Position numbers and translations under genes: made by a program. 64,000 bases of DNA from contig NZ_JAJEJT010000002.1 in assembly GCF_021390645.1 (NCBI RefSeq), positions 1,240,001-1,304,000 of the forward strand, in the 5' to 3' direction. The number at the start of each line of letters is the position of its first letter. Position 1 is the first letter of the stretch. The notes below the pieces were generated by a model. It was not told the origin of the DNA. It did not search any database and saw only the letters and a list, made by a program, of their open reading frames with translations. Shown one piece after another: positions 25,339 through 44,934 of the stretch. The DNA is from Paraburkholderia flagellata (lineage in GTDB: Bacteria; Pseudomonadota; Gammaproteobacteria; Burkholderiales; Burkholderiaceae).

Positions 25339-25429
25339 TATACCACTTTCGCGGAAACCTCCTCCAACGACTCAGGATTAACCATAGAATCGGCGGATAT
25401 TGGCTTGCCATTCAGCCACCAGTGGTATA
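25339..25429. promoter_or_regulatory. Candidate GntR operators (inverted GTGGTATA copies)
   Basis: TATACCAC at 25339-25346 and GTGGTATA at 25422-25429 are exact inverse copies in the divergent region between the GntR gene and the substrate-binding protein gene. TGGTATA is a common half-site of FadR-subfamily repressors. The rest of the 394-base gap shows nothing else I can name. Confidence 0.45.
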
Positions 25430-25696
25430 GATTCGTTCCACACTGATTTCAGGAAATTGGGCGAACCGGAGCCGGAAAACGACCTGGCCAACGGCACCCG
25501 CTTTTTGATATCCGAACCACTTCAGGACAACGAAACTCGTTTTCTTCAGAAGCGTAGGCTATGCAGCGTGGGACCTGGCGGCATGCCGGCTCGCTCGCTA
25601 TGCCCTGCGCCAAACGTCGTTCGTGATGGCGCTGCGCCGTCACAGCGGCCGGTCAAGTTCGCTTTCGCCTGCAAGTCCAACAAATCTGGAGACATC

Positions 25697-26818
25697 ATGC
25701 GCCGCATCGCTACAACCCTGGCCGCCCTGACGGCCGCCGGCTCCTGCCTCATCGCCCATGCTCAAACTGTCGTCACCATCGGCCACTCATCGCCGCTTAC
25801 GGGCCCGCAGGCGCCGAACGGCAAGGACAACGAGAATGGCGCGCGCCTCGCCATCGACGAACTGAACAAGAGCGGCGTGACGGTCGATGGCAAGAAGGTG
25901 ACGTTCAAACTGGATTCGGAAGACGACCAGGCGGACCCGAAGGTCGGGGTGCAGGTCGCTCAAAAGCTTGTCGACAGCGGCGTGGTTGCCGTCATGGGCC
26001 CGTACAACTCCGGCGTGGCGATTCCGGCATCGCGTGTCTATAACGCCGCCGGCGTTCCGATTCTGCCGGTCGCCTCGAACCCCGCGCTGACGAAACAAGG
26101 CTTCAAGACCATCTTCCGGATCGGCGCAAGCGATGAGCAGCTGGGCGGGACGATGGGCCAGTTCGCTGCGAAGACCTTGAAGGCGAAGACCGCAGCGGTC
26201 ATCGACGATCGCACCGCGTATGGGCAAGGTGTGGCGGAGCAGTTCGTGAAAGAGGCGAAAGCCAACGGCATCCAGATTGTCGACCAGGAGTTCACCAACT
26301 CGGCGGCGACTGACTTCCTCGGCATTCTCACCACCATCAAGGCGAAGAATCCGGACGTCATCTTCTTTGGCGGATACGCGGCTCAGGGTGCGCCGATGGC
26401 CAAGCAGATGCGCGCGCGCGGACTGCGTGCGAAGTTGCTGGGTGGCGATGGCATCTGCTCGGCCGATATGGGCAAGGTTGCGGGTGAAGCCGCGTCTATC
26501 GTGTATTGCGCGCAGGGTGGCGTCGCGCTGGACAAGACTGCGGCCGGCCGCGACTTCCTGAAGAAGTACAAGGACACCTACCACACGGATACGCAGGTCT
26601 ATGCCGTCAACTACTACGACGGCGTAAAACTGCTCGCCGATGCGATGGTCAAGGCTGGAACCACCACTGACAAGGCAAAGCTTGTCGCCCAATTGGCGAA
26701 GACCAACTATAAGGGCGTCGCAGGCACTTATTCCTTCGATGCAAACGGCGATCTCTTAGGCGCGCCTACGACCGTCTACATCATCAAGGACGGCCTGCCG
26801 GTGCCGTACGGTCAGTGA
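25697..26818 (+). CDS. Branched-chain-type ABC substrate-binding protein
   Basis: This is a periplasmic binding protein of 373 residues, LivJ/LivK family. The signal peptide MRRIATTLAALTAAG...AHA is followed by the typical start VTIGHSSPLTGPQAPNGKDNENG and by FKLDSEDDQADPKVGVQVAQKLVD. I chose the ATG at 25697 because it begins the signal peptide and follows GGAG. It is 20 bases upstream of the hydroxyproline dehydratase gene, so one operon is likely and the ligand may be trans-3-hydroxy-L-proline or a related imino acid. No permease or ATPase genes are present, so it must use a transporter encoded elsewhere. Confidence 0.9.
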   Translation: MRRIATTLAALTAAGSCLIAHAQTVVTIGHSSPLTGPQAPNGKDNENGARLAIDELNKSGVTVDGKKVTFKLDSEDDQADPKVGVQVAQKLVDSGVVAVMGPYNSGVAIPASRVYNAAGVPILPVASNPALTKQGFKTIFRIGASDEQLGGTMGQFAAKTLKAKTAAVIDDRTAYGQGVAEQFVKEAKANGIQIVDQEFTNSAATDFLGILTTIKAKNPDVIFFGGYAAQGAPMAKQMRARGLRAKLLGGDGICSADMGKVAGEAASIVYCAQGGVALDKTAAGRDFLKKYKDTYHTDTQVYAVNYYDGVKLLADAMVKAGTTTDKAKLVAQLAKTNYKGVAGTYSFDANGDLLGAPTTVYIIKDGLPVPYGQ

Positions 26819-26838: not shown

Positions 26839-27846
26839 ATGAAAACGACTCGTACCATTTCGACCGTCGAGGTCCATACCGGCGGCGAAGCCTTCCGTAT
26901 CGTCACGAGCGGATTGCCTCGCCTCCCCGGCGACACGATTGTGAAGCGCCGCGCGTGGCTAAAGGAAAACGCCGACGAAATCCGTACCGCCTTGATGTTC
27001 GAACCGCGTGGTCACGCCGACATGTACGGCGGCTATCTGACCGAACCGGTTAGCACAACTGCCGACTTCGGCATCATCTTCCTTCACAACGAGGGCTATA
27101 GCGACCACTGCGGACACGGCGTTATCGCGCTCGCCACCGCAGCGGTCGAACTTGGCTGGGTTCAACGCCAGGTGCCGGAAACGCGTGTTGGCATCGACGC
27201 GCCCTGTGGCTTCATCGAAGCGTTCGTTCAGTGGGATGGCGAACACGCCGGCAACGTGCGATTCGTGAACGTCCCGTCGTTCATCTGGAAGCGCGACGTA
27301 ACTGTCGAGACGCCGACCTTTGGCACGGTGAAGGGCGATATTGCTTTCGGCGGCGCGTTCTACTTCTATGCCGACGGTCAGCCGCACGGGCTCGCCGTGC
27401 GCGAGTCGTCGGTCGAGGAACTCATTCGGTTCGGCGCCGAGGTAAAGGAAGCCGCGAACAAGGCGTACCCCGTCGAGCATCCCGAGATCCCGGAAATCAA
27501 TCATATTTACGGAACCATCATTGCCAACGCACCGCGACACGAAGGTTCGACGCAAGCCAATTGCTGCGTCTTCGCTGACCGCGAAGTGGACCGCTCACCG
27601 ACCGGCTCCGGCACCGGTGGGCGCGTCGCTCAGTTGTACTTGCGAGGCGAACTTGGCAAAGACGAGACCCTTGTGAATGAGTCCATCATCGGCACTGTTT
27701 TCAAAGGACGCGTGCTCAGCGAGACGACAGTCGGCGACTTCAAGGCAGTGATCCCGGAAGTCGAAGGCAACGCGTTTGTTTGCGGCTTCGCGACCTGGAT
27801 CGTGGACGAACGCGATCCGCTGACTTACGGATTCCTCGTCCGGTAG
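26839..27846 (+). CDS. trans-3-hydroxy-L-proline dehydratase (proline racemase family)
   Basis: The predicted enzyme has 335 residues and the proline racemase fold. The first catalytic position is cysteine (SDHCGHG, C91). The second, cysteine in racemases and 4-hydroxyproline epimerases, is threonine (DRSPTGSGTGG, T255). The Cys/Thr pair is the known signature of trans-3-hydroxy-L-proline dehydratases (EC 4.2.1.77), which release delta-1-pyrroline-2-carboxylate. That product needs an imine reductase to become proline. None is adjacent, but two ornithine-cyclodeaminase-family reductases are encoded at 42866 and 56836. It follows the binding-protein gene by 20 bases and is probably controlled by the divergent GntR protein. 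Confidence 0.87.
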   Translation: MKTTRTISTVEVHTGGEAFRIVTSGLPRLPGDTIVKRRAWLKENADEIRTALMFEPRGHADMYGGYLTEPVSTTADFGIIFLHNEGYSDHCGHGVIALATAAVELGWVQRQVPETRVGIDAPCGFIEAFVQWDGEHAGNVRFVNVPSFIWKRDVTVETPTFGTVKGDIAFGGAFYFYADGQPHGLAVRESSVEELIRFGAEVKEAANKAYPVEHPEIPEINHIYGTIIANAPRHEGSTQANCCVFADREVDRSPTGSGTGGRVAQLYLRGELGKDETLVNESIIGTVFKGRVLSETTVGDFKAVIPEVEGNAFVCGFATWIVDERDPLTYGFLVR

Positions 27847-32666: not shown

Positions 32667-33887
32667 TCAAACAGGCGCCGACGCCACGCTCGCTGTTCGC
32701 GTTGCGTGCGTGCCCCGCTTCAGGCGCGCCACACCTTCGCGGATCTCATCCATGTTCGGCGCGGCGAACGAAAGGCGCAGCGACGCGGTATCCGGATCGT
32801 CAGCGAAGAAAGCCTTGCCCGGAACAAAAATCACCTTGCTCGCAATCGCGTTCGGCAAAAGCGCATCGATCGCCACGCCGGGAATGCGCGCCCACACGAA
32901 CATACCGCCTTCGGGTTGATGAAACGCGATTTCTTCACCGAATTGCGCGCGCAAACCATCGCAAAGCGCTTCGCATTTGCGCTGATACGCCTGCGTGATG
33001 TGCGGAAGGTGCCGTTCGAGCGAACCCGCCTCCAGATAGTGCGCGGCGATCGCCTGGGTCCACGGCGTGCTGCACAGGTCGACGGTCTGCTTGGCAATCA
33101 CGCAGCGCCGCGTGATTTCGGCGGGCGCGATGGTCCAGCCTACGCGCAAGCCAGGCGCGACGACTTTCGAGAGACTCGAAAAGTGCACGATCCAATCGCG
33201 CGCGCCCTGCACTTCGCTTGCCAGCGCCAGCATCGACGGCACCGCGTCGCCGGCGAAGCGCAGATCGCCGTACGGATCGTCCTCGACGATCACGAAGCGG
33301 TATTGAACGGCAAGACGCAAGAGCGCAAGGCGCCGCTCGCGCGTGAGCGTGGCGCCGGTGGGATTCGCGAAGGTCGGCACCGTGTACAGCAGCTTGGGCC
33401 GGACAATCGCGCCCGATGCGAGCCGCGCCGCGAGTCTGTCCACGTCGATACCGTCGCCGTCTACGGGCACCGTCACGACATGCGCCTGCTGGAGCCTTAG
33501 CGCCTGCAGCGTGGCCGGATAGGCGGGCTGCTCCGTCAAGGCCGTGTCGCCCGGAGCGAGCAGCACACGCAACAGGAGGTCGAGGCCTTGCTGCGAGCCG
33601 GTCGTCACGAGCATTTCCTCAGGCGCGCAGGTCACGCCACGGCGCGCCATCAGCGCGAGCAGTTGCGTCTTCAACTCGGGCAAGCCGTCGGTCGGGCCAT
33701 ATTGAAGGCAGCGCGTGGAAGCCTGCCAAGCCTGTGCCGCTGCCGCCTGCAGTCCATCGGCATCGAACAGGTCGCTGGCCGGATAACCGCCAGCGAAGGA
33801 AATCATGCCTGGCTCTCCCAGGTACTTGAAAAGCTCGCGAATGGGCGAACCGGCGGGATGCCGAAAGGGAGCGGTGAAATCGTACAT
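32667..33887 (-). CDS. PLP aminotransferase, probable 2-aminoadipate transaminase
   Basis: This fold-type I aminotransferase of 406 residues is of the LysN / MocR-like group. The start MYDFTAPFRHPAGSPIRELF and GMISFAGGYPASDLFD are typical of 2-aminoadipate and broad-range transaminases. The PLP lysine lies in HFSSLSKVVAPGLRVGW; the aspartate that holds the cofactor nitrogen is in VIVEDDPYGDLRF. I start at MYDFTAP; a longer frame to 33953 lacks homologous sequence. In the pathway proposed here it converts L-2-aminoadipate to 2-oxoadipate, the substrate of the DUF1338 enzyme at 39369. Its promoter region carries one of the two shared 46-base elements. Confidence 0.85.
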   Translation of the reverse strand: MYDFTAPFRHPAGSPIRELFKYLGEPGMISFAGGYPASDLFDADGLQAAAAQAWQASTRCLQYGPTDGLPELKTQLLALMARRGVTCAPEEMLVTTGSQQGLDLLLRVLLAPGDTALTEQPAYPATLQALRLQQAHVVTVPVDGDGIDVDRLAARLASGAIVRPKLLYTVPTFANPTGATLTRERRLALLRLAVQYRFVIVEDDPYGDLRFAGDAVPSMLALASEVQGARDWIVHFSSLSKVVAPGLRVGWTIAPAEITRRCVIAKQTVDLCSTPWTQAIAAHYLEAGSLERHLPHITQAYQRKCEALCDGLRAQFGEEIAFHQPEGGMFVWARIPGVAIDALLPNAIASKVIFVPGKAFFADDPDTASLRLSFAAPNMDEIREGVARLKRGTHATRTASVASAPV

Positions 33888-33959
33888 GGCGTAGATGGGT
33901 CGATGGCGGTTAGGCGCGGCAACGGACAAGCTTCGATTGTGGTCAGCCCTCACGGGCGT

Positions 33960-34005
33960 ATCAAACGAAATCTAATCACGACGTCATGCGGTTTGCTCAT
34001 CAAGC
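33960..34005 (-). promoter_or_regulatory. Shared 46-base element, copy 1 (upstream of the aminotransferase)
   Basis: On the plus strand it begins ATCAAACGAAATCTAATCAC and ends GCTCATCAAGC. It is identical at 42 of 46 positions to 38394-38439, upstream of the binding-protein gene. The copy lies 73 bases upstream of the aminotransferase start codon. Such exact conservation outside genes suggests a common operator or promoter. Confidence 0.75.
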
Positions 34006-34013
34006 ATTCGCGC

Positions 34014-34042
34014 AATAAAAAAGCCCGTGAAATCACGGGCTT
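34014..34042 (-). terminator. Rho-independent terminator of the FAD oxidoreductase gene
   Basis: On the minus strand AAGCCCGTGA pairs with TCACGGGCTT in a tight hairpin followed by TTTTATT. It lies 27 bases after the stop codon of the gene at 34069. A second palindrome, TGACGGCGCGCCGTCA, overlaps that stop at 34056-34071. Confidence 0.8.
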
Positions 34043-34068
34043 CGTTTGCGCAACCTGACGGCGCGCCG

Positions 34069-35241
34069 TCACACGACATTCTTTTCGACGATCGGCCGGT
34101 TTTCCAGCACACGCGACCAGTCGAGCGAAGAAAGATCGAGCGTGGTGTATCTGCCATGCAGAATCAACTCGCTCACGCCGCGCCCGGTTGCCGGCCCCTG
34201 CTGCAAACCGTGCCCGCTAAACCCATTGGCGAACACGCAATTGTCGATGGCCGGGTGATAACCGATGATGGCGTTCTGGTCGAGCACGTTGTACTCGTAG
34301 TAGCCTGACCAGCAGTTCTCCACGCGCAGCGCCTCGAACCCCGGCACGCGATGCGCAAGCGTGGGCCAGATCACGTCGTCGAAGATGGCGTGATCGACTT
34401 CGTCGAGTGGCAGATCGTTGGGATCGTTCTCCGCGCTCGGCGACGTTCCGGTGATATACGTATTGCCCTCCGGGCGGAAATACACGCCCGACGGATCGAT
34501 CAGCAACGGGCAGGCAGTGAGTCGCGCCGGCGATGACACATTGAAAATGCTGCGTCGGCGCGCATAAACCGGAATGTCGATGTCCATCATTTCCGCGAGC
34601 TTGCGCGCCCACGCGCCAGCCGCGTTCACGAGCGTGTCGCACGCATGGCGTTCGCCGTCGCTCGCGATCACGTGCGTGACCTTGCGGCCACTGCGCACGA
34701 CGCCCGCCACATCGGCCGCGACATAGCGCGCACCGAGCGACTGTGCCTTCTTGCGCAGCGCCTGCACGAGCCCGTAGCCGTCGAACCAGCCCTCGCCGCT
34801 GCGGCCATACGCGCCGCTTTCGAGATCCTCGACGTTGAGCCACGGAAACTTCGCTTGCAACGCGTCGCGCGCCATGAGTTCGATGTCCGCGCCGAGGCTC
34901 GTTTGCAGCGCGTGATTCTCGCGCAGCGTCGCGTCGCCCGCTTGCGTGGCGAGGAAAAGATAACCGCCCTCGTGCAGATCGATCGACGGACGGCTGCCAT
35001 TCACTTCGAGCCGCTCGCCAATGCTGCGCAAAAACTCGATGCCGAACAGCGACATCTGGATCGACAACGGCGTGGAAAACTGCTGCCGGATCGACGCGGC
35101 CGAAAGCGCCGACGACGAGCGCGCATAACTCGGGTCGCGCTCGAACACGGTCACGGATACCGTTGGGTCGGCCGCGCGCAGAAAGTAAGCAATAGAACTA
35201 CCGATTACCCCGCCGCCAACGATAACGACTTGAGAACTCAC
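34069..35241 (-). CDS. FAD-dependent oxidoreductase, candidate L-pipecolate oxidase
   Basis: This glycine/D-amino-acid oxidase-family flavoprotein (DAO fold) has 390 residues. The N-terminal VVIVGGGVIGSSIAYFL is the FAD-binding Rossmann motif (GxGxxG), SALSAASIRQQF is the family's second block, and the C-terminus has GFSGHGLQQGPATGRGVSELI. It lies between the aminotransferase and ALDH7 genes on one strand. The pathway proposed here therefore needs it to oxidise L-pipecolate to delta-1-piperideine-6-carboxylate (the AmaA step); sarcosine or D-amino-acid oxidation are alternatives. I chose GTG 35241 because GGAG is 6 bases before it; an ATG at 35277 is possible. Confidence 0.8.
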   Translation of the reverse strand: MSSQVVIVGGGVIGSSIAYFLRAADPTVSVTVFERDPSYARSSSALSAASIRQQFSTPLSIQMSLFGIEFLRSIGERLEVNGSRPSIDLHEGGYLFLATQAGDATLRENHALQTSLGADIELMARDALQAKFPWLNVEDLESGAYGRSGEGWFDGYGLVQALRKKAQSLGARYVAADVAGVVRSGRKVTHVIASDGERHACDTLVNAAGAWARKLAEMMDIDIPVYARRRSIFNVSSPARLTACPLLIDPSGVYFRPEGNTYITGTSPSAENDPNDLPLDEVDHAIFDDVIWPTLAHRVPGFEALRVENCWSGYYEYNVLDQNAIIGYHPAIDNCVFANGFSGHGLQQGPATGRGVSELILHGRYTTLDLSSLDWSRVLENRPIVEKNVV

Positions 35242-35352
35242 GACTGGCTCCAGATTGCGGATAACTGCGGCGCGCATTGATTGGGTTTGCGCGAATCGAT
35301 CGACCGGGTGCGCGATGCCCCCGGCCACGTCCGTCATGTACGCGAAATGCGC

Positions 35353-36852
35353 TTATTCGACGTTGAAATCGATGCCCTGTGCGAGCGGCAGCGACGACGA
35401 ATAGTTGACCGTATTGGTCGCGCGGCGCATATAGGCCTTCCACGCGTCGGAGCCCGACTCGCGGCCGCCGCCCGTTTCCTTTTCACCGCCGAACGCGCCA
35501 CCGATCTCCGCGCCGCTCGGTCCGATGTTCACGTTCGCAATGCCGCAATCGCTGCCGCTGGCCGACGTGAAGCGCTCGCTCTCACGCAGGTCCGTCGTGA
35601 ACACGCACGACGAGAGGCCATGGTGGGCGGCGTTGTTCGCCTCGATGGCGTCGCCGAAGTCGCTGTACTTGAGCACGTAAAGAATCGGCGCGAAGGTTTC
35701 CTTCAGGACAACTTCGGTTTGCGACGGCATCTCGACGATCGCCGGGCGCACGTAGAAGCCCTTTTCGTTGCCCGCCACCGTGTGGCGCTCGCCGCCGAAC
35801 ACCTTGCCGCCTTCGCGCTTGGCCTGCTCGAGCGCCGACTGCATACGCGCGAACGACTGCTCGTCGATGAGCGGGCCCATCAGCGTGCCCTGTTCCAGCG
35901 GATTGCCGATCGCGACCTTGCCGTACAGCGTCTTCAGGCGCTCGACCGCCTTGTCGTACACGCTCTCGTGCACGAAGAGGCGGCGCAGCGACGTGCAGCG
36001 CTGACCCGCTGTGCCGACTGCCGAGAACAGAATGCCACGCAGCGCGAGTTCCAGATCGGCGGTAGCCGAAACGATGCCTGCGTTGTTGCCACCGAGTTCG
36101 AGCAGCGAGCGGCCGAAGCGGCGCGCGACTTCCACGCCCACGGTGCGGCCCATTTCGGTGCTGCCCGTTGCGCTCACGATGTTCGAACGCGGATCGGCGA
36201 CGAGCTTCGCGCCCACTTCGCGGCCGCCGACGACGAGGCTCGTAAGGCCTTCGGGCGCATCGCCGAACTCCTTCAACACGTCCTGCATGATCTTGTTGAC
36301 GGCAACCGCCGTGAGCGGCGTTTTTTCCGAGGGCTTCCACACAACGGCGTTACCGCACACGAGCGCGAGCGCGGCGTTCCACGACCAGACGGCAACCGGG
36401 AAATTGAACGCGGAAATCACGGTGCACACACCCATCGGATGCCACGTCTCCGCCATGCGGTGGCCTGGACGCTCCGAAGCAATGGTCAGACCGTAAAGCT
36501 GACGCGAGAGGCCGACCGCGAAGTCGCAGATGTCGATCATTTCCTGCACTTCGCCCAAGCCCTCCTGGAAAATCTTGCCGGTTTCCAGCGACACGAGGCT
36601 GCCGAGCGCGCGCTTCTGTTCGCGCAGCTTGTTGCCGAGCAGGCGCACGAGTTCGCCGCGGCGCGGCGCGGGCACGTTGCGCCAGGTCTTGAACGCCTCC
36701 TGCGCCTTCGCGAGCACGGCGTCGACGTCCGCCGCCGACTGGCTCGCGACGCGGCCGATCAATTCGCCGTTGATCGGCGAATGCACGGCGATGTCGCCCG
36801 CTTCCGCGAGCTGGGAAATACCGAGATCCGAGAGGATGGTGGAGGCTTTCAT
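35353..36852 (-). CDS. amaB: ALDH7-type aldehyde dehydrogenase (2-aminoadipate-6-semialdehyde dehydrogenase)
   Basis: The 499-residue NAD-dependent enzyme has the active-site glutamate in LLELGGNNAGIV (E252) and the nucleophile in GTAGQRCTSLRRLFVHES (C286). The Asn-Asn of ELGGNN and the RRLFVHES block are specific to the ALDH7 family (human antiquitin, Pseudomonas AmaB). Those enzymes oxidise 2-aminoadipate-6-semialdehyde, the open form of piperideine-6-carboxylate, to L-2-aminoadipate. It lies 111 bases upstream of the putative pipecolate oxidase. Its own promoter region contains palindromes listed separately. The gene symbol is by homology of the family and pathway position. Confidence 0.88.
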   Translation of the reverse strand: MKASTILSDLGISQLAEAGDIAVHSPINGELIGRVASQSAADVDAVLAKAQEAFKTWRNVPAPRRGELVRLLGNKLREQKRALGSLVSLETGKIFQEGLGEVQEMIDICDFAVGLSRQLYGLTIASERPGHRMAETWHPMGVCTVISAFNFPVAVWSWNAALALVCGNAVVWKPSEKTPLTAVAVNKIMQDVLKEFGDAPEGLTSLVVGGREVGAKLVADPRSNIVSATGSTEMGRTVGVEVARRFGRSLLELGGNNAGIVSATADLELALRGILFSAVGTAGQRCTSLRRLFVHESVYDKAVERLKTLYGKVAIGNPLEQGTLMGPLIDEQSFARMQSALEQAKREGGKVFGGERHTVAGNEKGFYVRPAIVEMPSQTEVVLKETFAPILYVLKYSDFGDAIEANNAAHHGLSSCVFTTDLRESERFTSASGSDCGIANVNIGPSGAEIGGAFGGEKETGGGRESGSDAWKAYMRRATNTVNYSSSLPLAQGIDFNVE

Positions 36853-36870
36853 AGGTAGAATCCCTTAAAA

Positions 36871-36884
36871 TTTCCGATACGAAA
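36871..36884. promoter_or_regulatory. TTTCC-like palindrome in the amaB promoter
   Basis: TTTCCGATACGAAA lies about 20 bases upstream of the ALDH start codon. It resembles TTTCCTATAGGAAA at 41502 and TTTCCTATTGGAAA at 37031 and shares CGATACGAA with the promoter of the XRE-cupin regulator (38699-38707). Likely operator for that regulator, by inference. Confidence 0.5.
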
Positions 36885-36932
36885 CATTGCTACTTTAGGA
36901 AACTATACACGCGCATTTTTCTGGCGACAACT

Positions 36933-36953
36933 CGAAAATCCGCGGGATTTTCG
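36933..36953. promoter_or_regulatory. Perfect 9-bp inverted repeat upstream of amaB
   Basis: CGAAAATCC and GGATTTTCG are exact inverse complements separated by GCG. The repeat lies about 80 bases upstream of the ALDH start, in the 249-base gap before the binding-protein gene. Operator or 3'-end hairpin; no T-run follows on either strand. Confidence 0.45.
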
Positions 36954-37030
36954 TCATGCCGCGTGCATCGCATCCACACGGCTTTCCGCCATGAAAATGG
37001 CACGCGGCCGCCCGGCGCGCGCACGATCTA

Positions 37031-37044
37031 TTTCCTATTGGAAA
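37031..37044. promoter_or_regulatory. TTTCCTATTGGAAA palindrome
   Basis: This near-perfect palindrome differs by one base from TTTCCTATAGGAAA at 41502-41515, in the promoter of the D-amino-acid dehydrogenase operon. It lies in the gap between the binding-protein stop and the ALDH start. Confidence 0.55.
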
Positions 37045-37053
37045 CAATGCATT

Positions 37054-37076
37054 GGGCGCCGACAGAAGCGGCGCCC
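37054..37076 (-). terminator. GC hairpin after the binding-protein gene
   Basis: GGGCGCCG and CGGCGCCC form an eight-base stem with a seven-base loop, 26 bases after the stop of the gene at 37102. There is only a weak T-rich stretch beyond, so termination may be inefficient. Confidence 0.5.
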
Positions 37077-37101
37077 TTCAGGCTTGCAACGGCTTTCGAG
37101 G

Positions 37102-38253
37102 TCAGTCCGTGGTCCGCGTCGTGACCGGCACCCACGCCACGTTCTTGACCTGATACAGCGTCGAACTCGGGCTCTTCAGGTCGCCCTGCGCATTGAAGGC
37201 GATCTTGCCCGTAATGCCGTCGTAGTTCGTGGCCTTCAGCGCGGCGTTGAACTGCGCCGGCGTCGCCGAGCCCGCCTTCTCCATCGCGGAGATGGCGACC
37301 CACGCCGCGTCATACGCGAACGGCGCGTAGGCGAGCATATCGATGCCGTACTTCTGCTTGAACTTTGCCTCGAAGCCTTTGCCTTTGGGCAGCGTGCCGA
37401 GCGGCTGGCCGTATTCCCATACCGAAGCGCCATCGGCGGAATCGCCGGCGAGCTTGATGAAGTTCGCGTCCATGACACCGCCGCCCGCGAGGAATTGCGC
37501 CTTCAGGCCAAGCTGGCGCATGCGCTTGACGATCATGGCAGCCTGCGCGTCAAGGCCGCCGAAAAACACGAGATCCGGACTCGTCCGCTTGATGCTCGTG
37601 AGCTGGGCGCTGAAATCCACGGCCTTGTCGTTCGTGAACTCGCGCGCGACGATCGTGCCGCCGGCCGCCTTCACGGCCTTCTCGAACTCGTCGGCTTCGC
37701 CCTGGCCGAAGGCCGTACGGTCGTCGATGATCGCAATGCGCTTCGCCTTCGTCACCGTCGCCGCATAGTTGCCCGCGTTGCCGGCGTTTTGCGAGTCGGT
37801 TGCGATCACGCGGTAGATGGTCGGGAAGCCGCCCTGCGTGATGGCCGGATTGGTCGCCGCCGGCGTAATCATCGGAATGCCCGCCTTCGCGTAGATCTTC
37901 GAGGCCGGCAGCGTCGTGCCCGAATTGAAGTGGCCGATCACAACGGCCACGTTGTCGTCCACGAGTTGCTGGGCGACCTGCACGCCGATGCGCGGATCGC
38001 TCTGGTCATCCTGCGAGTCGATCACGAACTTGACTGGCTTGCCGCCAATGGTGGGATGCGCGGCGTTGGCTTCGTCCACGGCGAGACGCACGCCGTTCTC
38101 GATGTCCTTGCCATACGCTGCGCCGCCGCCCGTGAGCGGGCTGGCCACGCCGATTTTCACGACCATTTCCTGCGCGCTCACCGCGCCGGCAACCAACATC
38201 AACGACGCTGCGATCGCGCAGCTACGACGAGAAGCGAGGAAACGAGGATGCAT
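37102..38253 (-). CDS. Branched-chain-type ABC substrate-binding protein (second)
   Basis: The periplasmic binding protein has 383 residues, with a signal peptide ending in AVSAQ and the LivK-family start VVKIGVASPLTGGGAAYGKDIENGVRLA. It shares FVIDSQDDQSDPRIGVQVAQ with the protein encoded at 25697 and is clearly its relative. I start at MHPRFLASRR because AAGGA lies 7 bases before it and the signal peptide follows. No permease or ATPase gene is in the window. Located within the proposed lysine/pipecolate cluster and sharing a 46-base upstream element with the aminotransferase gene, it probably binds a pathway substrate such as D-lysine or pipecolate. Confidence 0.9.
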   Translation of the reverse strand: MHPRFLASRRSCAIAASLMLVAGAVSAQEMVVKIGVASPLTGGGAAYGKDIENGVRLAVDEANAAHPTIGGKPVKFVIDSQDDQSDPRIGVQVAQQLVDDNVAVVIGHFNSGTTLPASKIYAKAGIPMITPAATNPAITQGGFPTIYRVIATDSQNAGNAGNYAATVTKAKRIAIIDDRTAFGQGEADEFEKAVKAAGGTIVAREFTNDKAVDFSAQLTSIKRTSPDLVFFGGLDAQAAMIVKRMRQLGLKAQFLAGGGVMDANFIKLAGDSADGASVWEYGQPLGTLPKGKGFEAKFKQKYGIDMLAYAPFAYDAAWVAISAMEKAGSATPAQFNAALKATNYDGITGKIAFNAQGDLKSPSSTLYQVKNVAWVPVTTRTTD

Positions 38254-38393
38254 GCGATATTCCTTCGGTATCTGGAGCCGGCACGTGATGCGCCCGAATG
38301 GTCGCACGGACCGTCGGCGCAAAGGATTCGTCCCGCGCCACCCGATGCAGGGCGGCAGGACGTAAGCGGATTGTCGGCAGCGGTTTCGCATGC

Positions 38394-38439
38394 ATCAAAC
38401 GAAATCTAATCACCACGTAATGCGCTTTTCTCATCAAGC
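38394..38439 (-). promoter_or_regulatory. Shared 46-base element, copy 2 (upstream of the binding protein)
   Basis: On the plus strand it begins ATCAAACGAAATCTAATCAC and ends TCTCATCAAGC, 42 of 46 identical to 33960-34005. It lies 141 bases upstream of the binding-protein start. The first 20 bases are identical in both copies. The 481-base gap 38254-38734 holds no gene I can support; besides this element it contains the half-sites listed next. Confidence 0.75.
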
Positions 38440-38677
38440 CCGCACACATGGGGAATACAGCAATGTACGACGCGGCCTTGCAGGCATTGGGAGATACCCG
38501 ATAGCGCCGACATGCCTGCTTGTGCGTGGACGCGCTGCAAGGGCAGATCGTGTGGACGCCTTGCCTTGCGTGGTCTGGGTTTGCGTCAAAAATCATCAAC
38601 TTCTATGTGGCCTGTTTACTTAGTCATGCTATCGATACGCGGCATGACACAGCAAACGCTACACAGTACGCAAATGT

Positions 38678-38708
38678 TATGATCGGAAACATAGAGTACG
38701 ATACGAAC
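38678..38708. promoter_or_regulatory. ATCGGAAA and CGATACGAA half-sites before the XRE-cupin gene
   Basis: TTATGATCGGAAAC at 38678-38691 and CGATACGAA at 38699-38707 each match one half of the TTTCCGATACGAAA site in the amaB promoter. They lie 27-57 bases upstream of the regulator's start codon, which would suit autoregulation. Confidence 0.4.
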
Positions 38709-38734
38709 AATCAGCGAACACCCCGAGTTCCCGA

Positions 38735-39358
38735 ATGGAAACCCCGTCCATCAAGCCCGCCGAGCATGCTTCGGCGGAGTTGGGCAAGCGCGTCAAGGCG
38801 GCCCGGCTGAAGCACGATTACACGCTCGAGGCCGCCAGCCGGGTCTGCGGCGTCTCGCGCTCCACGCTCTCGAAGGTGGAAAACGGCGTCATGTCGCCGA
38901 CATTCGACGTGCTGCAGAAGATCGTTCACGGCCTGAAGATCGATCTCGGCGAACTGTTCGGCTCTGCGCCCAGGCCGCGCGCGAGTGGACGCCGCGCGCT
39001 CACCCGCAAGGGCGGTGGGCAGCAGCATTCGGCGGGCTGCTATCAAATGGAGTTGTTGGCAACGGAACTCGCGCACAAGGCGATGCACCCTTTCCATATT
39101 CGCGTGACGGCGCACTCGCTGGACGAGTTCACGGAATGGGGTCGGCATGAAGGCGAAGAGTTTCTCTTCGTATTGAGCGGCTCGGTGTGCCTATACTCCG
39201 AGCTTTACGCACCGACGCACCTCGAAGCCGGCGACAGCCTCTATTTCGACAGCCGCACGGGTCATGCGGCCGTCTCCACGAGCGAAGAGGATGCGGAAGT
39301 CCTCTGGCTCATCAACGAGCCGCACCCGGACACGCAAGACGGCGCGCCGGGCGTTTGA
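38735..39358 (+). CDS. XRE-cupin transcriptional regulator
   Basis: The 207-residue product has a helix-turn-helix of the XRE type at residues 15-75 (LGKRVKAARLKHDYTLEAAS and SRSTLSKVENG). A C-terminal cupin domain at about 110-195 contains HEGEEFLFVLSGSVCLY and LEAGDSLYFDSRTGHA. XRE-cupin proteins commonly repress amino-acid and polyamine catabolic genes and are released by a ligand or metal in the cupin. It is flanked by the binding-protein gene and the DUF1338 gene, both on the opposite strand, and is the best candidate controller of the cluster through the TTTCC-type palindromes. Confidence 0.9.
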   Translation: METPSIKPAEHASAELGKRVKAARLKHDYTLEAASRVCGVSRSTLSKVENGVMSPTFDVLQKIVHGLKIDLGELFGSAPRPRASGRRALTRKGGGQQHSAGCYQMELLATELAHKAMHPFHIRVTAHSLDEFTEWGRHEGEEFLFVLSGSVCLYSELYAPTHLEAGDSLYFDSRTGHAAVSTSEEDAEVLWLINEPHPDTQDGAPGV

Positions 39359-39368
39359 GACGCTGACT

Positions 39369-40394
39369 TTACGCAGCGTTCGCGGTCATTTTGAAAATAC
39401 CGGTGGCATTGCCCGCGTCGAAGCGCAAATCGGTCTGCCAGCGCCGCGTGACCTGATCGAACGTGCGCTTGCGCGTGATGAACTCGTAGAACGAGCCCGG
39501 CACCTCGCGCGTCACGCGCTGGCCGTCGGCAGCGCGGAACTCGCGCGACACGGTGTCCGCGCGATACGCAGTCTGAAACACGCGGCCCGAGCGCGAGGTC
39601 TCGACGTTGGGTTTCATCGGACGCCCCTTGGCCTTCTCGTCGTCCGAAAGCTGGAATACGTCTTCCACGCGGTCGGTAGCGTGATTGAAGGCGTTGCCTT
39701 CCGTTGCGATCCACGCCATTTCCGCGGATTCCTGCAGCAACGTCTCGTAGTCCGAAATAGATGGCACTTCGTGCTGTCGCGCGAACGCCCCGACGATCAC
39801 GGGCAGCAGTTGCAGCGCCACATCGAGCGGCAGCGAGCCGTCGCGTTCGAGCTCGGAGAGTTGTGCAATGGCCAGCGGCGTGAGCGGATCTCTCGACGCA
39901 CCCACCACGTTCGTCACGGCTTGCTGGAACGCCGCCGAAAAGCGCTCGGGGTGCAACTCGCTCACGAAGAACTGCGCGATCTCGTCGGGCGCGTCTTCGT
40001 GGGCATAAGCGCGTCCCGTCATGCCGAGCTTGTCGAGCGGATAGCGGCCGTTCAGGCGAAAGCCGAGCGGGCGCAGAATGCGTGTGAACGCCGCTTCGCC
40101 GGGCGGAAGCGCGCCGTTGTGCGCCCAGCGCACCGTGCGCAGTGCGCCATGATCGAAGTACACCGCGCCGCCCTGCGCCACCGTATCGTTCGTGTACGTG
40201 CGGCCGTTGGGCGAGCGATCCAGCAGGTCTTCGAAGAGCGCCATGTTCATCGCCTGGGCGAGTTCGGCGCGCGTGACGGCGCCGTTTTCCCAGTCTTCGA
40301 GCATCGAAGGAAAGTTGAGCGTTGCAAAGAGGGTTTCAGTTTTCTCGCGGCCAAGCAGCGCGGACAACAAGCGTTCTACGTTCGAATTGCGCAT
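39369..40394 (-). CDS. hglS: DUF1338 2-oxoadipate dioxygenase/decarboxylase (HglS type)
   Basis: This 341-residue protein is a DUF1338 member. Characterised Pseudomonas putida HglS (PP_5260) is an Fe(II)-dependent enzyme that turns 2-oxoadipate directly into D-2-hydroxyglutarate with O2. The three metal ligands have clear counterparts: H82 in YFDHGALRTVRW, H238 in EGNAFNHATDRVED, and E304 in GSFYEFITRK. R86, four residues after the first histidine, matches the HglS arginine that holds the substrate. I start at MRNSNVERLL; a longer frame to 40436 adds 14 residues. The gene ends 10 bases from the stop of the convergent XRE-cupin gene and is divergent from a LysR gene. Confidence 0.88.
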   Translation of the reverse strand: MRNSNVERLLSALLGREKTETLFATLNFPSMLEDWENGAVTRAELAQAMNMALFEDLLDRSPNGRTYTNDTVAQGGAVYFDHGALRTVRWAHNGALPPGEAAFTRILRPLGFRLNGRYPLDKLGMTGRAYAHEDAPDEIAQFFVSELHPERFSAAFQQAVTNVVGASRDPLTPLAIAQLSELERDGSLPLDVALQLLPVIVGAFARQHEVPSISDYETLLQESAEMAWIATEGNAFNHATDRVEDVFQLSDDEKAKGRPMKPNVETSRSGRVFQTAYRADTVSREFRAADGQRVTREVPGSFYEFITRKRTFDQVTRRWQTDLRFDAGNATGIFKMTANAA

Positions 40395-40549
40395 CACCAA
40401 TCTCACAGGAAACGACCGCCTGACGGCGGTCATCAAACGGGCCTCTGGCCATCGGCGTCGGCCAGCTATACGTGAAACGCATTATTCGAATGGTTGCGCA
40501 CCGCGTAAAGCGAGATTAAATTGTCACTTGATGAGTTTCCGGAATCAAC

Positions 40550-41461
40550 ATGCGTAAGTTCAAGATCCCGAACATGGGCGCGCTCACGGCGTTCGAAGCC
40601 GCAGCGCGGCACGAAAGTTTCACGCACGCCGCCAAAGAGCTGTTCCTGACCGAAAGCGCAGTGTCGCGCCAGATCGCCACGCTCGAATCGAATCTCGGCG
40701 TGCACCTCTTCGTGCGCGCCAAGCAGCGGGTCGTGCTCACGCGCGCCGGCCGTCTCTATGGCACCCAGGTGCGGCGTGCGCTCGAAAATCTGGATCGAGA
40801 CACCCTCTCCATCATTGCGCACGGCAGCGGCGGCGGTTATTTGGAACTCGCCGTGCTGCCGACCTTCGCCTCCGAATGGCTCATTCCGCGCCTCAAGGAC
40901 TTCTACGACCGCACGCCCGACGTGCGCGTGAACATGGGGGTGCGCACCGAGACGTTTTCGTTCGAGGAATCGCATTTCGAAGCCGCCATCCACTACGGCA
41001 AGCCCACCTGGCCCGGCACGTCGTCCGATTTTCTGTTCGGCGAGGAAGTGGTGCCCGTCTGTTCGCCGTCGCTGCTCGCCCGGCCCATCAAGAAGGCGCA
41101 CGAACTGCTCGCCTACCCGCTGCTGCACTCCACCACGCGCCCCGACGCATGGACGCGCTGGTTCTCCGACCTCGGCGTGGAAGACAACGCCACGATGCAC
41201 GGCGTGCGCTACGAACTGCACACGATGCTGATCGCAGCGGCCGCGGCCGGCCTCGGCGTGGCGCTCGTGCCGAAGTTCTTCGTGGAAGGCCAGTGCGAGC
41301 GGTTTGGCGTTGTCATTCCGTTCGAGACGCCTGCCATTGCCGATGGCGGCTACTACTTCGTCTACCCCACCGAACTCAGCCACGGCAAGCCGCTGGAGCT
41401 GTTCCGCGCGTGGCTGCTCGAGCAGGCGACCGCCTATAACGCCGCGCAAGGCCGCGAGTGA
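40550..41461 (+). CDS. LysR family regulator, GcvA-like
   Basis: The 303-residue product begins MRKFKIPNMGALTAFEAAAR with the LysR helix-turn-helix (AAKELFLTESAVSRQIATLE) and GVHLFVRAKQRVVLTRAG, and has a type-2 periplasmic-binding co-inducer domain of the GcvA/AmpR subgroup. It is divergent from the DUF1338 gene across 155 bases. On the minus strand this gap contains ACTCATCAAGTG, which shares CTCATCAAG with the end of the 46-base elements. It may therefore regulate hglS and possibly the aminotransferase and binding-protein genes. Confidence 0.92.
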   Translation: MRKFKIPNMGALTAFEAAARHESFTHAAKELFLTESAVSRQIATLESNLGVHLFVRAKQRVVLTRAGRLYGTQVRRALENLDRDTLSIIAHGSGGGYLELAVLPTFASEWLIPRLKDFYDRTPDVRVNMGVRTETFSFEESHFEAAIHYGKPTWPGTSSDFLFGEEVVPVCSPSLLARPIKKAHELLAYPLLHSTTRPDAWTRWFSDLGVEDNATMHGVRYELHTMLIAAAAAGLGVALVPKFFVEGQCERFGVVIPFETPAIADGGYYFVYPTELSHGKPLELFRAWLLEQATAYNAAQGRE

Positions 41462-41501
41462 TCTGCGGGTCAAGCACACAAGTTACACGATCAGAAAAAA
41501 G

Positions 41502-41515
41502 TTTCCTATAGGAAA
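41502..41515. promoter_or_regulatory. Perfect palindrome TTTCCTATAGGAAA before the D-amino-acid dehydrogenase operon
   Basis: The 14-base palindrome is exact and centred about 55 bases upstream of the start codon at 41564. Its centre TATAGG could overlap a -10 element, as a repressor site often does. Near-copies occur at 37031-37044 and 36871-36884. Confidence 0.6.
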
Positions 41516-41563
41516 TAGTTGGGTTAGCATCGGACGAAATCACTTCTTCGTCACGAGACAGAC

Positions 41564-42805
41564 ATGGAAGACGTCGTCGTCATTGGTGCGGGCATCGTCG
41601 GGGCCTGCGCCGCGCTCAACCTGGCGCAGCGCGGCATGCGCGTGCGGATCGTCGACTGCGCGCCGCCCGGCTCGGGCTGCTCGCTCGGCAATGCCGGGCT
41701 GATTGCGGTCGACCATGTCGCGCCACTGGCGAGCCCCGAGACGATGGCCGGACTGTCCCGCATGCTGCTGCGCCGCGACAGCCCGCTGCGTCTGCACAAA
41801 CGCAGCCTGCCGCGCATGGCGCCGTGGATGCTGGAGTTCGCCGCTCAGGCGCAGCGCCCGCGCTTTCGGCGCAATACGCGCGCGCTCGCGAGTCTCGTGA
41901 CAGGCGCGGCGCAAGCCTGGCGTCGTCTGCTCGATCGGCATATTGCCGCCGAACTCTTTCGCGACATCGGCTCGCTCTACGTGTTTGAACAACCCGTTGC
42001 GCACGCAACGGAACGCGCGCAACTCGATCTGCTCGACCGGCACGGCGTGCGTTACGAGACGCTCTCGGCTGAGCAGGTGCGGCGCGACTATCTTCCGTCG
42101 CTCACGCCGCATATCAGCCACGCGCGTTACTTTCCCGGCATGGCTTCGGTCACGAATCCGCAGCAGGTCGTCGTGCGTATTTTCGAGGCCGCGCTCGCAG
42201 CGGGCGCGAGCTTCACGAGCGCCAGCGTCGACGCGTTGCGCGCCCTGCCCGATGGCCGCATCGGCGTCACGCTGAACGGGCAGACGCAGCCAGCCGCGAA
42301 GGTGCTGATCGCGGCCGGCTCACGTAGCGCCGGTCTCGCGGAGCAACTCGGCGCAAACATTCCGCTGACCAATGAGCGCGGCTATCACGTACAACTCGCC
42401 GCTCCCTCGCAAGACACGCTGCGCGTGCCCGTGAGCTTCGTCGAGCGCGGCTTCACGTGCAATCCGATGGCGCAAGGCATCCGGCTTGCCGGCACCGTCG
42501 AACTCGGCGCGCGCGGCGCACCCGACTGGCGCCGCGCCGATCTGCTCGCCACGCAATTCCAGACGCTGTTTCCCGGCGACCGAGCCCCGCAGGTCGCGAG
42601 CCGCTGGTACGGCGAACGCCCGACGCTGCCCGACTATCTGCCGATGATTGGCGAGATGCCCGGCGCGCGCAATGCCTTCGTCGCGACCGGCCATCAGCAT
42701 CTTGGCCTCACGCTCGGGCCGCTTACCGGCGAACTCGTCGCACAATTGATGGCGCGCGACACGCCCGCCGTCGATCTCGCACCGTTTCGCATCGACCGTT
42801 TTTGA
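41564..42805 (+). CDS. FAD-dependent D-amino-acid dehydrogenase
   Basis: The 413-residue flavoprotein is of the DadA / D-hydroxyproline dehydrogenase type. The Rossmann motif VVVIGAGIVGACAALNL is at the start, CSLGNAGLIAVDHV follows (the S-x-G-NAG block of DadA-like enzymes), and the C-terminal GHQHLGLTLGPLTGELVAQL closes the FAD site. It heads a row of three genes with the imine reductase at 42866 (60-base gap) and asparaginase. Oxidation of a D-amino acid such as D-lysine gives a cyclic imine that the next gene product could reduce. D-hydroxyproline or D-proline are alternative substrates. Confidence 0.88.
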   Translation: MEDVVVIGAGIVGACAALNLAQRGMRVRIVDCAPPGSGCSLGNAGLIAVDHVAPLASPETMAGLSRMLLRRDSPLRLHKRSLPRMAPWMLEFAAQAQRPRFRRNTRALASLVTGAAQAWRRLLDRHIAAELFRDIGSLYVFEQPVAHATERAQLDLLDRHGVRYETLSAEQVRRDYLPSLTPHISHARYFPGMASVTNPQQVVVRIFEAALAAGASFTSASVDALRALPDGRIGVTLNGQTQPAAKVLIAAGSRSAGLAEQLGANIPLTNERGYHVQLAAPSQDTLRVPVSFVERGFTCNPMAQGIRLAGTVELGARGAPDWRRADLLATQFQTLFPGDRAPQVASRWYGERPTLPDYLPMIGEMPGARNAFVATGHQHLGLTLGPLTGELVAQLMARDTPAVDLAPFRIDRF

Positions 42806-42865
42806 GGCCGGGGACGAAACTCACGCAGCCCCACCCACGCATCATTCATCAGGAGAGAACATTCG

Positions 42866-43774
42866 ATGGAGCCCATCGCGATCTACGACGCAGCCGCCAC
42901 GGCGCGCCTGCTCGACTTCGGCGTGCTGCTCGACGCCCTCGCCACGGCCGCGCAGGACCACGACGCCGGCCGCATTCACGCGCCCGTGCGCACGGGCGTG
43001 CCGCTCAAGGGCAACGGCGTCATGCTCTCGATGCCCGCCAGCGCCGACGACATCGCCATCCACAAGCTCGTGAGCGTGTGCCCCGCCAACACGGCGCTCG
43101 GCATGCCGACCATCTTTGGCGCGGTGACGGTGTGCAACGGCGCGACGGGGCAGCCCGAATTCATTCTCGACGGCCCGACCGTGACGGGGCGGCGCACCGC
43201 GGCGCTCTCCATGCTGGGCGTGCGCGTCTTTCACCCGGGCGCGCCGCGTGCGTTTCTGGTGATCGGCACGGGCCAGCAAGCGCGTTTTCATGCCGAGGCA
43301 ATCGGCCAGCTGTATCCGGCGGCGACGCTTTATGTGATGGGCCGGACCGAGGCGTCCGCAGAGGCATTCCGCGCTCACCTCGCGCAGTCAGGCGTGCGCG
43401 CGACGCCCGCGCACGGCGCGGTGCCCGAGGAAGTCGATGTGGTCATCGCCGCGACCACGAGCAAGACGCCCGTCTACGACGCCGCGGCGCGCCGGGACCG
43501 GCTCGTGATCGGCGTTGGCGCCTTCACGCCGGACGCCGCCGAAATCGCGCGGGAGACGGTGCGCGCGAGCCGCGTGTTCGTGGACGATCTGGCAGCCGCG
43601 CGCGAAGAAGCCGGCGACCTGCTGCAAGCCGGCATCGACTGGGCGGACGTGCGCACGATCGGCTCCGCGGTGGCGCACGGCGCGAAGCATGATGGCGCGC
43701 CCGTGCTGTTCAAAACGGTCGGCAGCGGCGCGTGGGATCTCGCGGCGTGCCGCGTGGCGCGCGAAAGGCGTTAG
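42866..43774 (+). CDS. Ornithine cyclodeaminase-family imine reductase (delta-1-piperideine/pyrroline-2-carboxylate reductase)
   Basis: The 302-residue product has the ornithine cyclodeaminase / mu-crystallin fold. The Rossmann motif is FLVIGTGQQARFHAEAI and the substrate-side block HKLVSVCPANTALGMPTI. It lacks the classical arginine/ornithine pocket sequence and reads like LhpI/DpkA-type reductases. These use NAD(P)H to reduce delta-1-pyrroline-2-carboxylate or delta-1-piperideine-2-carboxylate to proline or L-pipecolate. The gene directly follows a D-amino-acid dehydrogenase gene, which would supply such an imine. A clear AGGAGA site precedes the ATG. Confidence 0.82.
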   Translation: MEPIAIYDAAATARLLDFGVLLDALATAAQDHDAGRIHAPVRTGVPLKGNGVMLSMPASADDIAIHKLVSVCPANTALGMPTIFGAVTVCNGATGQPEFILDGPTVTGRRTAALSMLGVRVFHPGAPRAFLVIGTGQQARFHAEAIGQLYPAATLYVMGRTEASAEAFRAHLAQSGVRATPAHGAVPEEVDVVIAATTSKTPVYDAAARRDRLVIGVGAFTPDAAEIARETVRASRVFVDDLAAAREEAGDLLQAGIDWADVRTIGSAVAHGAKHDGAPVLFKTVGSGAWDLAACRVARERR

Positions 43775-43854: not shown

Positions 43855-44934
43855 ATGACGACGAGCGCTCCCCAACCCGCCGTAAAAGTCCTGCGCGGCG
43901 GTGTCATCGAAACCACGCATGTCGCCCATATCGCCGTGGTCGACGCTCAGGGCCGCCTGCTCTATGCGTTCGGCAACCCGCATCGCATGACGCTCGTGCG
44001 CTCGGCGGCCAAGCCCGCGCAGGCGCTCGCCGTGGTCGAGACGGGAGCGCTCGAGCGCTTCGGCTTCGACGACGCCGATCTCGCGCTCATGTGCGCCTCT
44101 CACAGCAGCGAGGATCGCCATATCGAGCGTACGCGCGCGATGCTCGCCAAGGTGTCCGCTTCGGAATCGGACCTGCGTTGCGGCGGCCATGCGCCGTTGT
44201 CCGACGCCGTGTACAAGGCGTGGATCAAGCGCGACTTCACGCCGGGCGCGGTGTGCAGCAACTGCTCGGGCAAGCACGCGGGCATGCTTGCGGGCGCGCG
44301 CTCCATCGGCGCGGCGCTGGCCGATTACCATCTGCCTTCGCATCCCTTGCAGCAGCATGTGAAGCGCGTCGTAGCCGAGGTTTGCGATCTTCCCGAGGCG
44401 GGTGTCGAGTGGGGCATCGACGGCTGCAATCTGCCGACGCCGGCTTTCCCGCTCGATCGCCTCGCGCGGCTTTTCGTGAAGCTCGCCGATGCCGAGGATC
44501 AGGCGAATATGGCGGCCGATTCACGTTCACAGGCGCTCGCCCGCATCTACCGCGCGATGGCGTCGTATCCAGAACTCGTGGCGGGCGAAGGCCGCTTCTG
44601 CACAGCGCTCATGCGCGCGTTCGAAGGCGAACTCGTCGGCAAGCTGGGCGCGGCGGGCAGTTACGCGATTGGCGTGCGCGCAAGCGCGGCGACTGCGGCG
44701 CATACGGGCGGCCCGGCATTGGGTATCGCGGTGAAGATCGAAGACGGCGATCTGACCGCGCTCCATGCCACCGTCGTGGAAGTGTTGAGACAACTAGGAA
44801 TCGGCACAACGGAACAGATTGCACAACTAAGCAAATTCGACGCCCCGCGCATCGTCAACACGATGGGCGTCGAGACGGGTTACGTCGCGCCGCAGTTCAC
44901 GCTGGAGCGCTTCGATCACCGGCCCGCCAAATAA
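43855..44934 (+). CDS. Asparaginase (asparaginase II, thermolabile family)
   Basis: The 359-residue product belongs to the asparaginase_II family (PF06089 type), unrelated to the bacterial AnsA/AnsB fold. Conserved blocks are VVDAQGRLLYAFGNPHRMTLVRSAAKPAQAL, of which RSAAKP is the family hallmark, CASHSSEDRHIERTRAML, and CSNCSGKHAGMLA. It would release ammonia and aspartate from asparagine. It begins 80 bases after the imine reductase stop and may share its promoter. Start at MTTSAPQ is chosen because the family block begins within 25 residues; the frame runs further upstream without homologous sequence. Confidence 0.88.
   Translation: MTTSAPQPAVKVLRGGVIETTHVAHIAVVDAQGRLLYAFGNPHRMTLVRSAAKPAQALAVVETGALERFGFDDADLALMCASHSSEDRHIERTRAMLAKVSASESDLRCGGHAPLSDAVYKAWIKRDFTPGAVCSNCSGKHAGMLAGARSIGAALADYHLPSHPLQQHVKRVVAEVCDLPEAGVEWGIDGCNLPTPAFPLDRLARLFVKLADAEDQANMAADSRSQALARIYRAMASYPELVAGEGRFCTALMRAFEGELVGKLGAAGSYAIGVRASAATAAHTGGPALGIAVKIEDGDLTALHATVVEVLRQLGIGTTEQIAQLSKFDAPRIVNTMGVETGYVAPQFTLERFDHRPAK

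Follow-up and report, generated by a model that had tools for sequence, protein, structure and literature searches.

A gene cluster in the genome of Paraburkholderia flagellata is likely to form a catabolic regulon for L-pipecolate, which in this lineage is also fed by a D-amino acid, most likely D-lysine. The cluster lies in a 64,000-nucleotide (nt) stretch, called the window below, which corresponds to positions 1240001-1304000 of contig C2 (NZ_JAJEJT010000002.1) in a 9.0-Mb genome of 6 contigs; coordinates without a contig name are those of the window. An earlier note on this DNA had proposed that six enzymes encoded within 11 kb make up a complete pathway from D-lysine and L-pipecolate to 2-hydroxyglutarate. 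The six open reading frames (ORFs) were intact, and their broad families agreed with that annotation, except that the FAD enzyme at 34069 is not of the AmaA family. Genes for a periplasmic binding protein (SBP), an XRE-cupin regulator and a LysR-type regulator (LysR2), which the note had placed among the pathway genes, were all present by domain matches. None of these ORFs contained an internal stop.

In the proposed pathway, a D-amino-acid-dehydrogenase-like FAD enzyme (DAADH; 41564-42805, plus strand; PF01266, 194 bits) would convert D-lysine to delta1-piperideine-2-carboxylate (P2C), and LhpI, a delta1-pyrroline/piperideine-2-carboxylate reductase (42866-43774, plus strand), would reduce P2C to L-pipecolate with NAD(P)H. 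A second FAD enzyme (FADox; 34069-35337, minus strand; PF01266, 206 bits) would oxidize L-pipecolate to delta1-piperideine-6-carboxylate (P6C)/aminoadipate semialdehyde. From there, an ALDH7-type P6C/aminoadipate-semialdehyde dehydrogenase (ALDH; 35353-36852, minus strand) would yield L-2-aminoadipate, and an aminotransferase (AT; 32667-33953, minus strand; PF00155, 139 bits) would convert it to 2-oxoadipate. The DUF1338 protein HglS (39369-40436, minus strand), a predicted 2-oxoadipate dioxygenase/decarboxylase using Fe(II) and O2, would form D-2-hydroxyglutarate, which YdiJ, encoded elsewhere, would convert to 2-oxoglutarate. We infer the substrates of FADox, DAADH and AT. The chemistry is already known; new are the different FAD enzyme, a shared palindrome and the modular spread of the genes.

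The enzyme families and their linkage were observed directly. The minus strand carries hglS, SBP, ALDH, FADox and AT in this order, with the plus-strand XRE-cupin gene between hglS and SBP; on the plus strand, LysR2, DAADH, LhpI and an asparaginase II-family gene follow in series. Only one of 49 genome matches to P6C dehydrogenase and one of five to LhpI exceeded the respective cut-off, and both are located in the cluster, as is the single PF07063 match of the whole genome. Because these genome-unique enzymes co-locate in 11 kb and the set recurs in relatives, the gene grouping is not due to chance. The closest HglS matches in the genome collection were those of Paraburkholderia hiiakae (97%), P. 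nodosa and P. guartelaensis (both 96%). No report of this cluster in Burkholderiaceae was found in the open-licence literature searched.

Relatives were the best 80 of 382 loci by HglS similarity, most with 10 kb on each side, and a gene was counted in a locus if it gave a tblastn match of at least 45% identity.

Predicted steps from P6C to 2-oxoglutarate

ALDH exceeded the equivalog cut-off for L-piperidine-6-carboxylate dehydrogenase (NF050084, 817 versus 730 bits). AT was over no NCBIfam cut-off, its best match being PdxR-like (232 of 320 bits). Among the 15 solved AT relatives listed, archaeal multi-substrate enzymes were on top (1x0m, 272 bits), the 2-aminoadipate aminotransferase 2egy was fourth (246 bits), and kynurenine/aminoadipate aminotransferases were also included. 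HglS matched PF07063 with 77 bits (gathering score 25) and PDB entry 3iuz, named only as a putative glyoxalase superfamily protein, with 450 bits; on a Mycobacterium-type HglS model it reached only 23 of 600 bits. With residues counted from the TTG start codon, it contains the metal triad H96, H252 and E318 and the substrate arginine R100. All four residues fall on the expected triad and arginine when the protein is aligned with 3lho (15.8 and 14.4 bits). Against 6w1k, an entry titled hydroxyglutarate synthase, a 19.4-bit stretch covers H252 and E318, and the H96/R100 stretch scores -1.9. DUF1338 proteins retaining the triad and the arginine are argued, in an excerpt of PMC7286885, to act on 2-oxoadipate. 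The predicted steps from P6C to 2-hydroxyglutarate are well supported by the ALDH equivalog, the AT relatives, the HglS residues, the single-copy genes and the conserved linkage.

A D-2-hydroxyglutarate-dehydrogenase (D2HGDH)-like gene (FAD/Fe-S, about 1000 amino acids, YdiJ-related) was present in 46 of the 80 relatives. When the plasmids pBVIE01 and pSYMBR3459 were included (82 loci surveyed), it was no more than 175 nt downstream of HglS in all but one of the 48 loci having it (47 of 48). It also follows HglS on four annotated plasmids, all conjugative-typed, two of which are within the 48 loci. Copies from three relatives, scored whole, reached 488-513 bits on NF049975 (cut-off 1350). The gene is absent from the window's cluster. 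A YdiJ equivalog is encoded elsewhere in the genome (C2:1992456-1995527, corresponding to L115:4457-7528; NF049975, 1515 versus 1350 bits), and thus, with the whole genome taken into account, the pathway down to 2-oxoglutarate appears complete. The word "complete" in the earlier note accordingly holds as far as 2-hydroxyglutarate, with the next enzyme encoded outside the cluster. In a locus without ALDH and FADox, a 4-hydroxyphenylpyruvate-dioxygenase-like gene (L038:7595-8791; 270 bits, cut-off 277) adjoins the LysR, HglS and D2HGDH genes.

A palindrome shared by two predicted operons

The palindrome TTTCC-NATN-GGAAA is located before both the D-branch (DAADH) operon and the ALDH/FADox/AT operon. 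Pattern search found a perfect copy, TTTCCTATAGGAAA, 48 nt before DAADH (41502-41515), and two near-copies before ALDH, namely TTTCCGATACGAAA at a distance of 18 nt (36871-36884) and TTTCCTATTGGAAA at 178 nt (37031-37044). When up to two mismatches were allowed, the window had 8 matches to TTTCCNATANGAAA, spread over 5 places; 100 shuffles averaged 1.25 matches, and none reached 8. Genome-wide, the strict pattern TTTCCNATNGGAAA was found three times, twice within the cluster, and a reversed control pattern was absent. The third site (C2:709981), close to where a porin-like ORF has its 5' end, was taken as chance; cluster-gene relatives in its vicinity were limited to aminotransferase-domain (MocR-like) and LysR-like ORFs.

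The operator distribution was then recorded in the 82 loci, using 250 nt upstream of each gene and up to two mismatches; rows with less than 70% coverage or less than 100 nt upstream were left out. The palindrome was detected upstream of DAADH in 11/11, of ALDH in 21/32 and of the XRE-cupin gene in 8/31 cases. It was found upstream of none of the other genes surveyed (FADox 0/44, HglS 0/82, LysR2 0/77, AT 0/34, SBP 0/34, D2HGDH 0/44, LhpI 0/12, GDE 0/7 and citrate synthase 0/7). Counting every site with up to two mismatches, wherever it lay, 50 were observed across the 82 loci, and each of three base shuffles gave 1 to 2. The ALDH palindromes were present in 21 of 28 FADox-bearing loci versus 0 of 4 FADox-less ones. 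In a locus of another genus (L113), FADox adjoins an XRE-cupin gene, and a palindrome is located 36 nt before the matched region of FADox.

The palindrome is probably the operator of the XRE-cupin protein (38735-39358, plus strand; PF01381, 53 bits; PF07883, 48 bits), as predicted from its distribution. This regulator would probably repress the DAADH-LhpI and ALDH-FADox-AT operons, and a pathway metabolite binding to the cupin domain would relieve the repression; the ligand, the repression and the operon limits are predictions. Several observations speak against this assignment. The XRE-cupin gene was not in the stretch for 10 of the 21 loci with an ALDH palindrome, neither plasmid (pBVIE01 or pSYMBR3459) has a palindrome with up to two mismatches before ALDH, and none was detected at this threshold upstream of the window's own XRE-cupin gene. 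In addition, the loci share kinship, so that counts over relatives are not independent.

A separate block in the hglS-lysR gap (40505-40535) is conserved across 75 aligned sequences and may be a LysR site. This suggests that hglS is possibly under the control of the divergent LysR2 (40550-41461, plus strand; GcvA-like, 268 of 288 bits), which would probably be its regulator.

Substrate of the D-branch

LhpI passed its equivalog cut-off (NF045512, 445 versus 400 bits). DAADH was over no curated cut-off and, on the DadA model NF001933, scored 177 bits, below the subfamily cut-off of 383, which weakens its assignment. The D-lysine step is a prediction: D-pipecolate or D-proline would fit DAADH equally. 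We consider it possible, albeit doubtful, that D-pipecolate (or D-proline) is the actual entry compound. In that case, DAADH would form the cyclic imine (P2C from D-pipecolate) and LhpI the L-form, and this two-enzyme stereo-inversion would feed the L-pipecolate pathway. Most loci run the core without the D-branch (DAADH was found in 10/80 loci and 6/150 genomes), so pipecolate itself may be the food. Further, the window's cluster revealed no gene for a lysine racemase. In favor of D-lysine as the first substrate, an excerpt of PMC6034422 gives it as the experimentally known substrate of the P. putida counterparts.

On plasmid pBVIE01, a racemase-like gene was considered as a lysine racemase and rejected, since it is DadX-like (513 of 600 bits) and adjoins a DadA equivalog.

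The FAD enzyme of the proposed L-pipecolate step

The gene at 34069 had been annotated as L-pipecolate oxidase. FADox scored only 19 bits on the AmaA model NF050086 (cut-off 600), which rules out its identification as AmaA and removes one ground for this function. DAADH reached 34 bits on the same model, and no gene in the window's genome was over the AmaA cut-off (best, 188 of 600 bits). The best solved FADox relative is 1y56_B (78 bits), deposited as sarcosine oxidase; presumably it is part of an L-proline dehydrogenase, which we take as a lead only. An AlphaFold model of FADox built from 30 close homologs had a mean pLDDT of 45. Plasmid curing supports a pipecolate oxidase encoded on a plasmid of Phaeobacter inhibens, as stated in an excerpt of PMC5653290. 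The Phaeobacter FAD protein that we matched to this oxidase by position shares 26% identity over 205 residues with FADox.

The function is supported only indirectly, by linkage to and co-regulation with ALDH, and by a partly complementary distribution of FADox and an AmaA-like FAD gene. FADox is present in 27 of the 33 AT-containing loci, and the AmaA-like gene was found in none of these 27. It was present in 5 of the 6 AT loci without FADox, the sixth (L032) being cut by a contig end (Fisher p 2.5e-5, computed on related loci). In four of these five loci, at most 90 nt separate the AmaA-like gene from LysR2; in the other, the distance is about 730 nt. In L024 and L028, AT is followed by a HAD-like gene and no FAD enzyme, and the AmaA-like gene is located beyond LysR. 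These data are suggestive of a swap between the two FAD enzymes, short of proof.

Other loci weaken this picture. The 29 further FADox-less loci among the 80, which also lack AT, show neither FADox nor the AmaA-like gene in reach, and some loci carry ALDH, AT and HglS with neither FAD gene in reach. Among six distant FADox-less HglS stretches, the AmaA-like gene was detected in one (L129; not in L130, L131, L133, L135 or L136), and this copy scored only 185 of 600 bits, comparable to several paralogs in the window's genome. The P. sabiae plasmid has a 36% relative. Moreover, FADox relatives of 49-55% identity occur in unrelated gene contexts, which lends the pathway no support and weighs against a single fixed substrate across the family.

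Alternatively, the substrate of FADox could be a different amine, such as saccharopine or an N-alkyl-lysine, whose oxidation would directly yield aminoadipate semialdehyde. The sarcosine-, glycine- and dimethylglycine-oxidizing enzymes among its family relatives and the other contexts of its distant relatives are compatible with this. We regard it as unlikely, because the pipecolate-making LhpI (11/11) and DAADH (10/10) are confined to FADox loci and their operator is common to ALDH-FADox.

Among the 35 AT loci of the 82, electron transfer flavoprotein (ETF) beta was encoded directly behind AT in 6, with ETF alpha next in 4 of these 6; 28 of the 32 loci with at least 1 kb past AT had no ETF beta gene. 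No ETF gene is located behind AT in the window's cluster. In a minority of loci, then, there are hints that a dehydrogenase is coupled to ETF or that the ETF serves the 2-hydroxyglutarate dehydrogenase.

A possible role of LhpI in hydroxyproline utilization

A trans-3-hydroxy-L-proline dehydratase equivalog (26839-27846, plus strand; 661 bits, cut-off 540) is encoded 15 kb away from lhpI, and LhpI also accepts the compound that this dehydratase forms. A second lhpI is apparently a remnant (25539-25607, plus strand), with 23 residues that are 83% identical to the C-terminus of another LhpI type. With this copy reduced to a remnant, the cluster LhpI is the sole over-cut-off copy in the genome. 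LhpI may serve hydroxyproline too, a point against the preferred reading. That it serves mainly trans-3-hydroxyproline is quite improbable in our estimate, as lhpI is located behind DAADH and under the shared palindrome. The Azospirillum LhpI context revealed no comparable cluster. A second, branched-chain-type binding protein gene (25400-26818, plus strand) precedes the dehydratase gene.

Distribution and modularity among relatives

The earlier note had suggested looking for the cluster in related genomes. The gene set recurs there with varying content: among the 80 loci, LysR2 was counted in 75, the D2HGDH-like gene in 46, FADox in 45, AT in 33, SBP in 32, ALDH and XRE-cupin in 31 each, LhpI in 11, DAADH in 10 and asparaginase II in 9. 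LhpI and DAADH were confined to loci with FADox and ALDH; L019 has an LhpI of a different type (51%). DAADH, asparaginase and XRE-cupin genes are present in each of the nine closest loci (L001-L008 and L050), eight of them (not L008) contain LhpI, and none contains the D2HGDH-like gene. LysR2, HglS, AT and ALDH were found together in 4 of the 6 distant FADox-less Burkholderiaceae stretches (L129, L130, L131 and L135); within reach, L133 had no ALDH and L136 no AT. The same LysR2-HglS-AT-ALDH core is present on a Tistrella plasmid. In 150 genomes of the family, relatives were detected for ALDH in 104 (E-value limit 1e-160), for HglS in 61 (limit 1e-100), for FADox in 54 (limit 1e-150) and for DAADH in 6 (limit 1e-110).

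Judged from gene content, the core is an HglS-ALDH-aminotransferase module. The counts indicate that the D-branch is a patchy minority addition and that FADox is an optional entry gene. Although gene content differs among relatives, it is highly improbable that neighboring catabolic genes with separate roles merely give the appearance of a pathway through annotation, given the co-located single-copy enzymes, the palindrome common to two operons and the recurrent modules.

Comparison with known systems

In P. putida, the L-pipecolate and DUF1338 genes are PP_5257, PP_5258 and PP_5260, and the D-branch genes are PP_3591 and PP_3596; both groups were over-expressed in the wild type compared with a racemase mutant (excerpt of PMC6034422). 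The earlier note had described the P. putida genes as scattered. This applies to the D-branch, which lies apart, but not to amaA, amaB and hglS, which have near-consecutive tags in the same excerpt. Compared by family, the two systems share the predicted chemistry and the broad families of the reductase, the P6C dehydrogenase and the DUF1338 protein, and the co-expression in that excerpt suggests one regulon in P. putida too. In contrast to P. putida, there is one compact locus here with AT and the D-branch inside, FADox is not AmaA, the DUF1338 protein belongs to the 3iuz type, and a shared palindrome occurs together with an XRE-cupin gene. For P. aeruginosa, an amaR-amaAB operon is named in a reference title.

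Pseudomonas XRE-cupin proteins are described, in an excerpt of PMC7901475, as local repressors with palindromic sites adjoining their own genes. Repressors such as PauR and PsdR resemble the cluster regulator in their XRE and cupin architecture. Their palindromic sites beside their own gene and metabolic targets would have a counterpart in the predicted sites here. For the cluster XRE-cupin protein, binding, repression and ligand are predictions, and it gave only 28-36 bits to solved or modelled members.

Plasmid pBVIE01 of Burkholderia vietnamiensis G4 (L116) carries LhpI, DAADH, LysR, HglS, XRE, SBP, ALDH, FADox and AT, arranged relative to one another as in the window, with a palindrome before DAADH. 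Unlike the window's cluster, it has a D2HGDH-like gene following HglS and ETF beta/alpha following AT, is conjugative-typed and has no palindrome (up to two mismatches) before ALDH. Including its DadA equivalog and DadX-like racemase, it is the fullest version seen (L116 record 50910-71127). Related clusters are located on the conjugative-typed plasmids pSYMBR3459 (L117, P. phenoliruptrix) and pPs24235_1 (L140, P. sabiae) of Mimosa isolates; the latter has no FADox and has two other FAD oxidoreductase genes upstream.

Tentatively, plant-associated Burkholderiaceae could share a pipecolate island that is modular and in part carried on plasmids. In it, a previously unassigned FAD family would replace AmaA, an ETF encoded next to it would be the electron acceptor in some members, and a single XRE-cupin operator would be used. 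Pipecolate is a plant immune metabolite. If the proposal is true, the plasmid island in nodule isolates could allow root bacteria to eat this metabolite. A second FAD family for L-pipecolate oxidation would be named, a regulator-operator pair for the pathway would be defined, and a function would be suggested for a DUF1338 clade and for a family of FAD enzymes that Burkholderia and Paraburkholderia commonly carry.

Neighboring genes

The SBP (37102-38391, minus strand; PF13458, 221 bits) is an orphan, with 0 permease or ATPase genes among the scanned cluster ORFs. Behind lhpI, the asparaginase II-family gene (plus strand; PF06089, 409 bits) extends from its ATG at 43855 to 44934 (listed ORF from 43732), and it is present in the nine closest loci.

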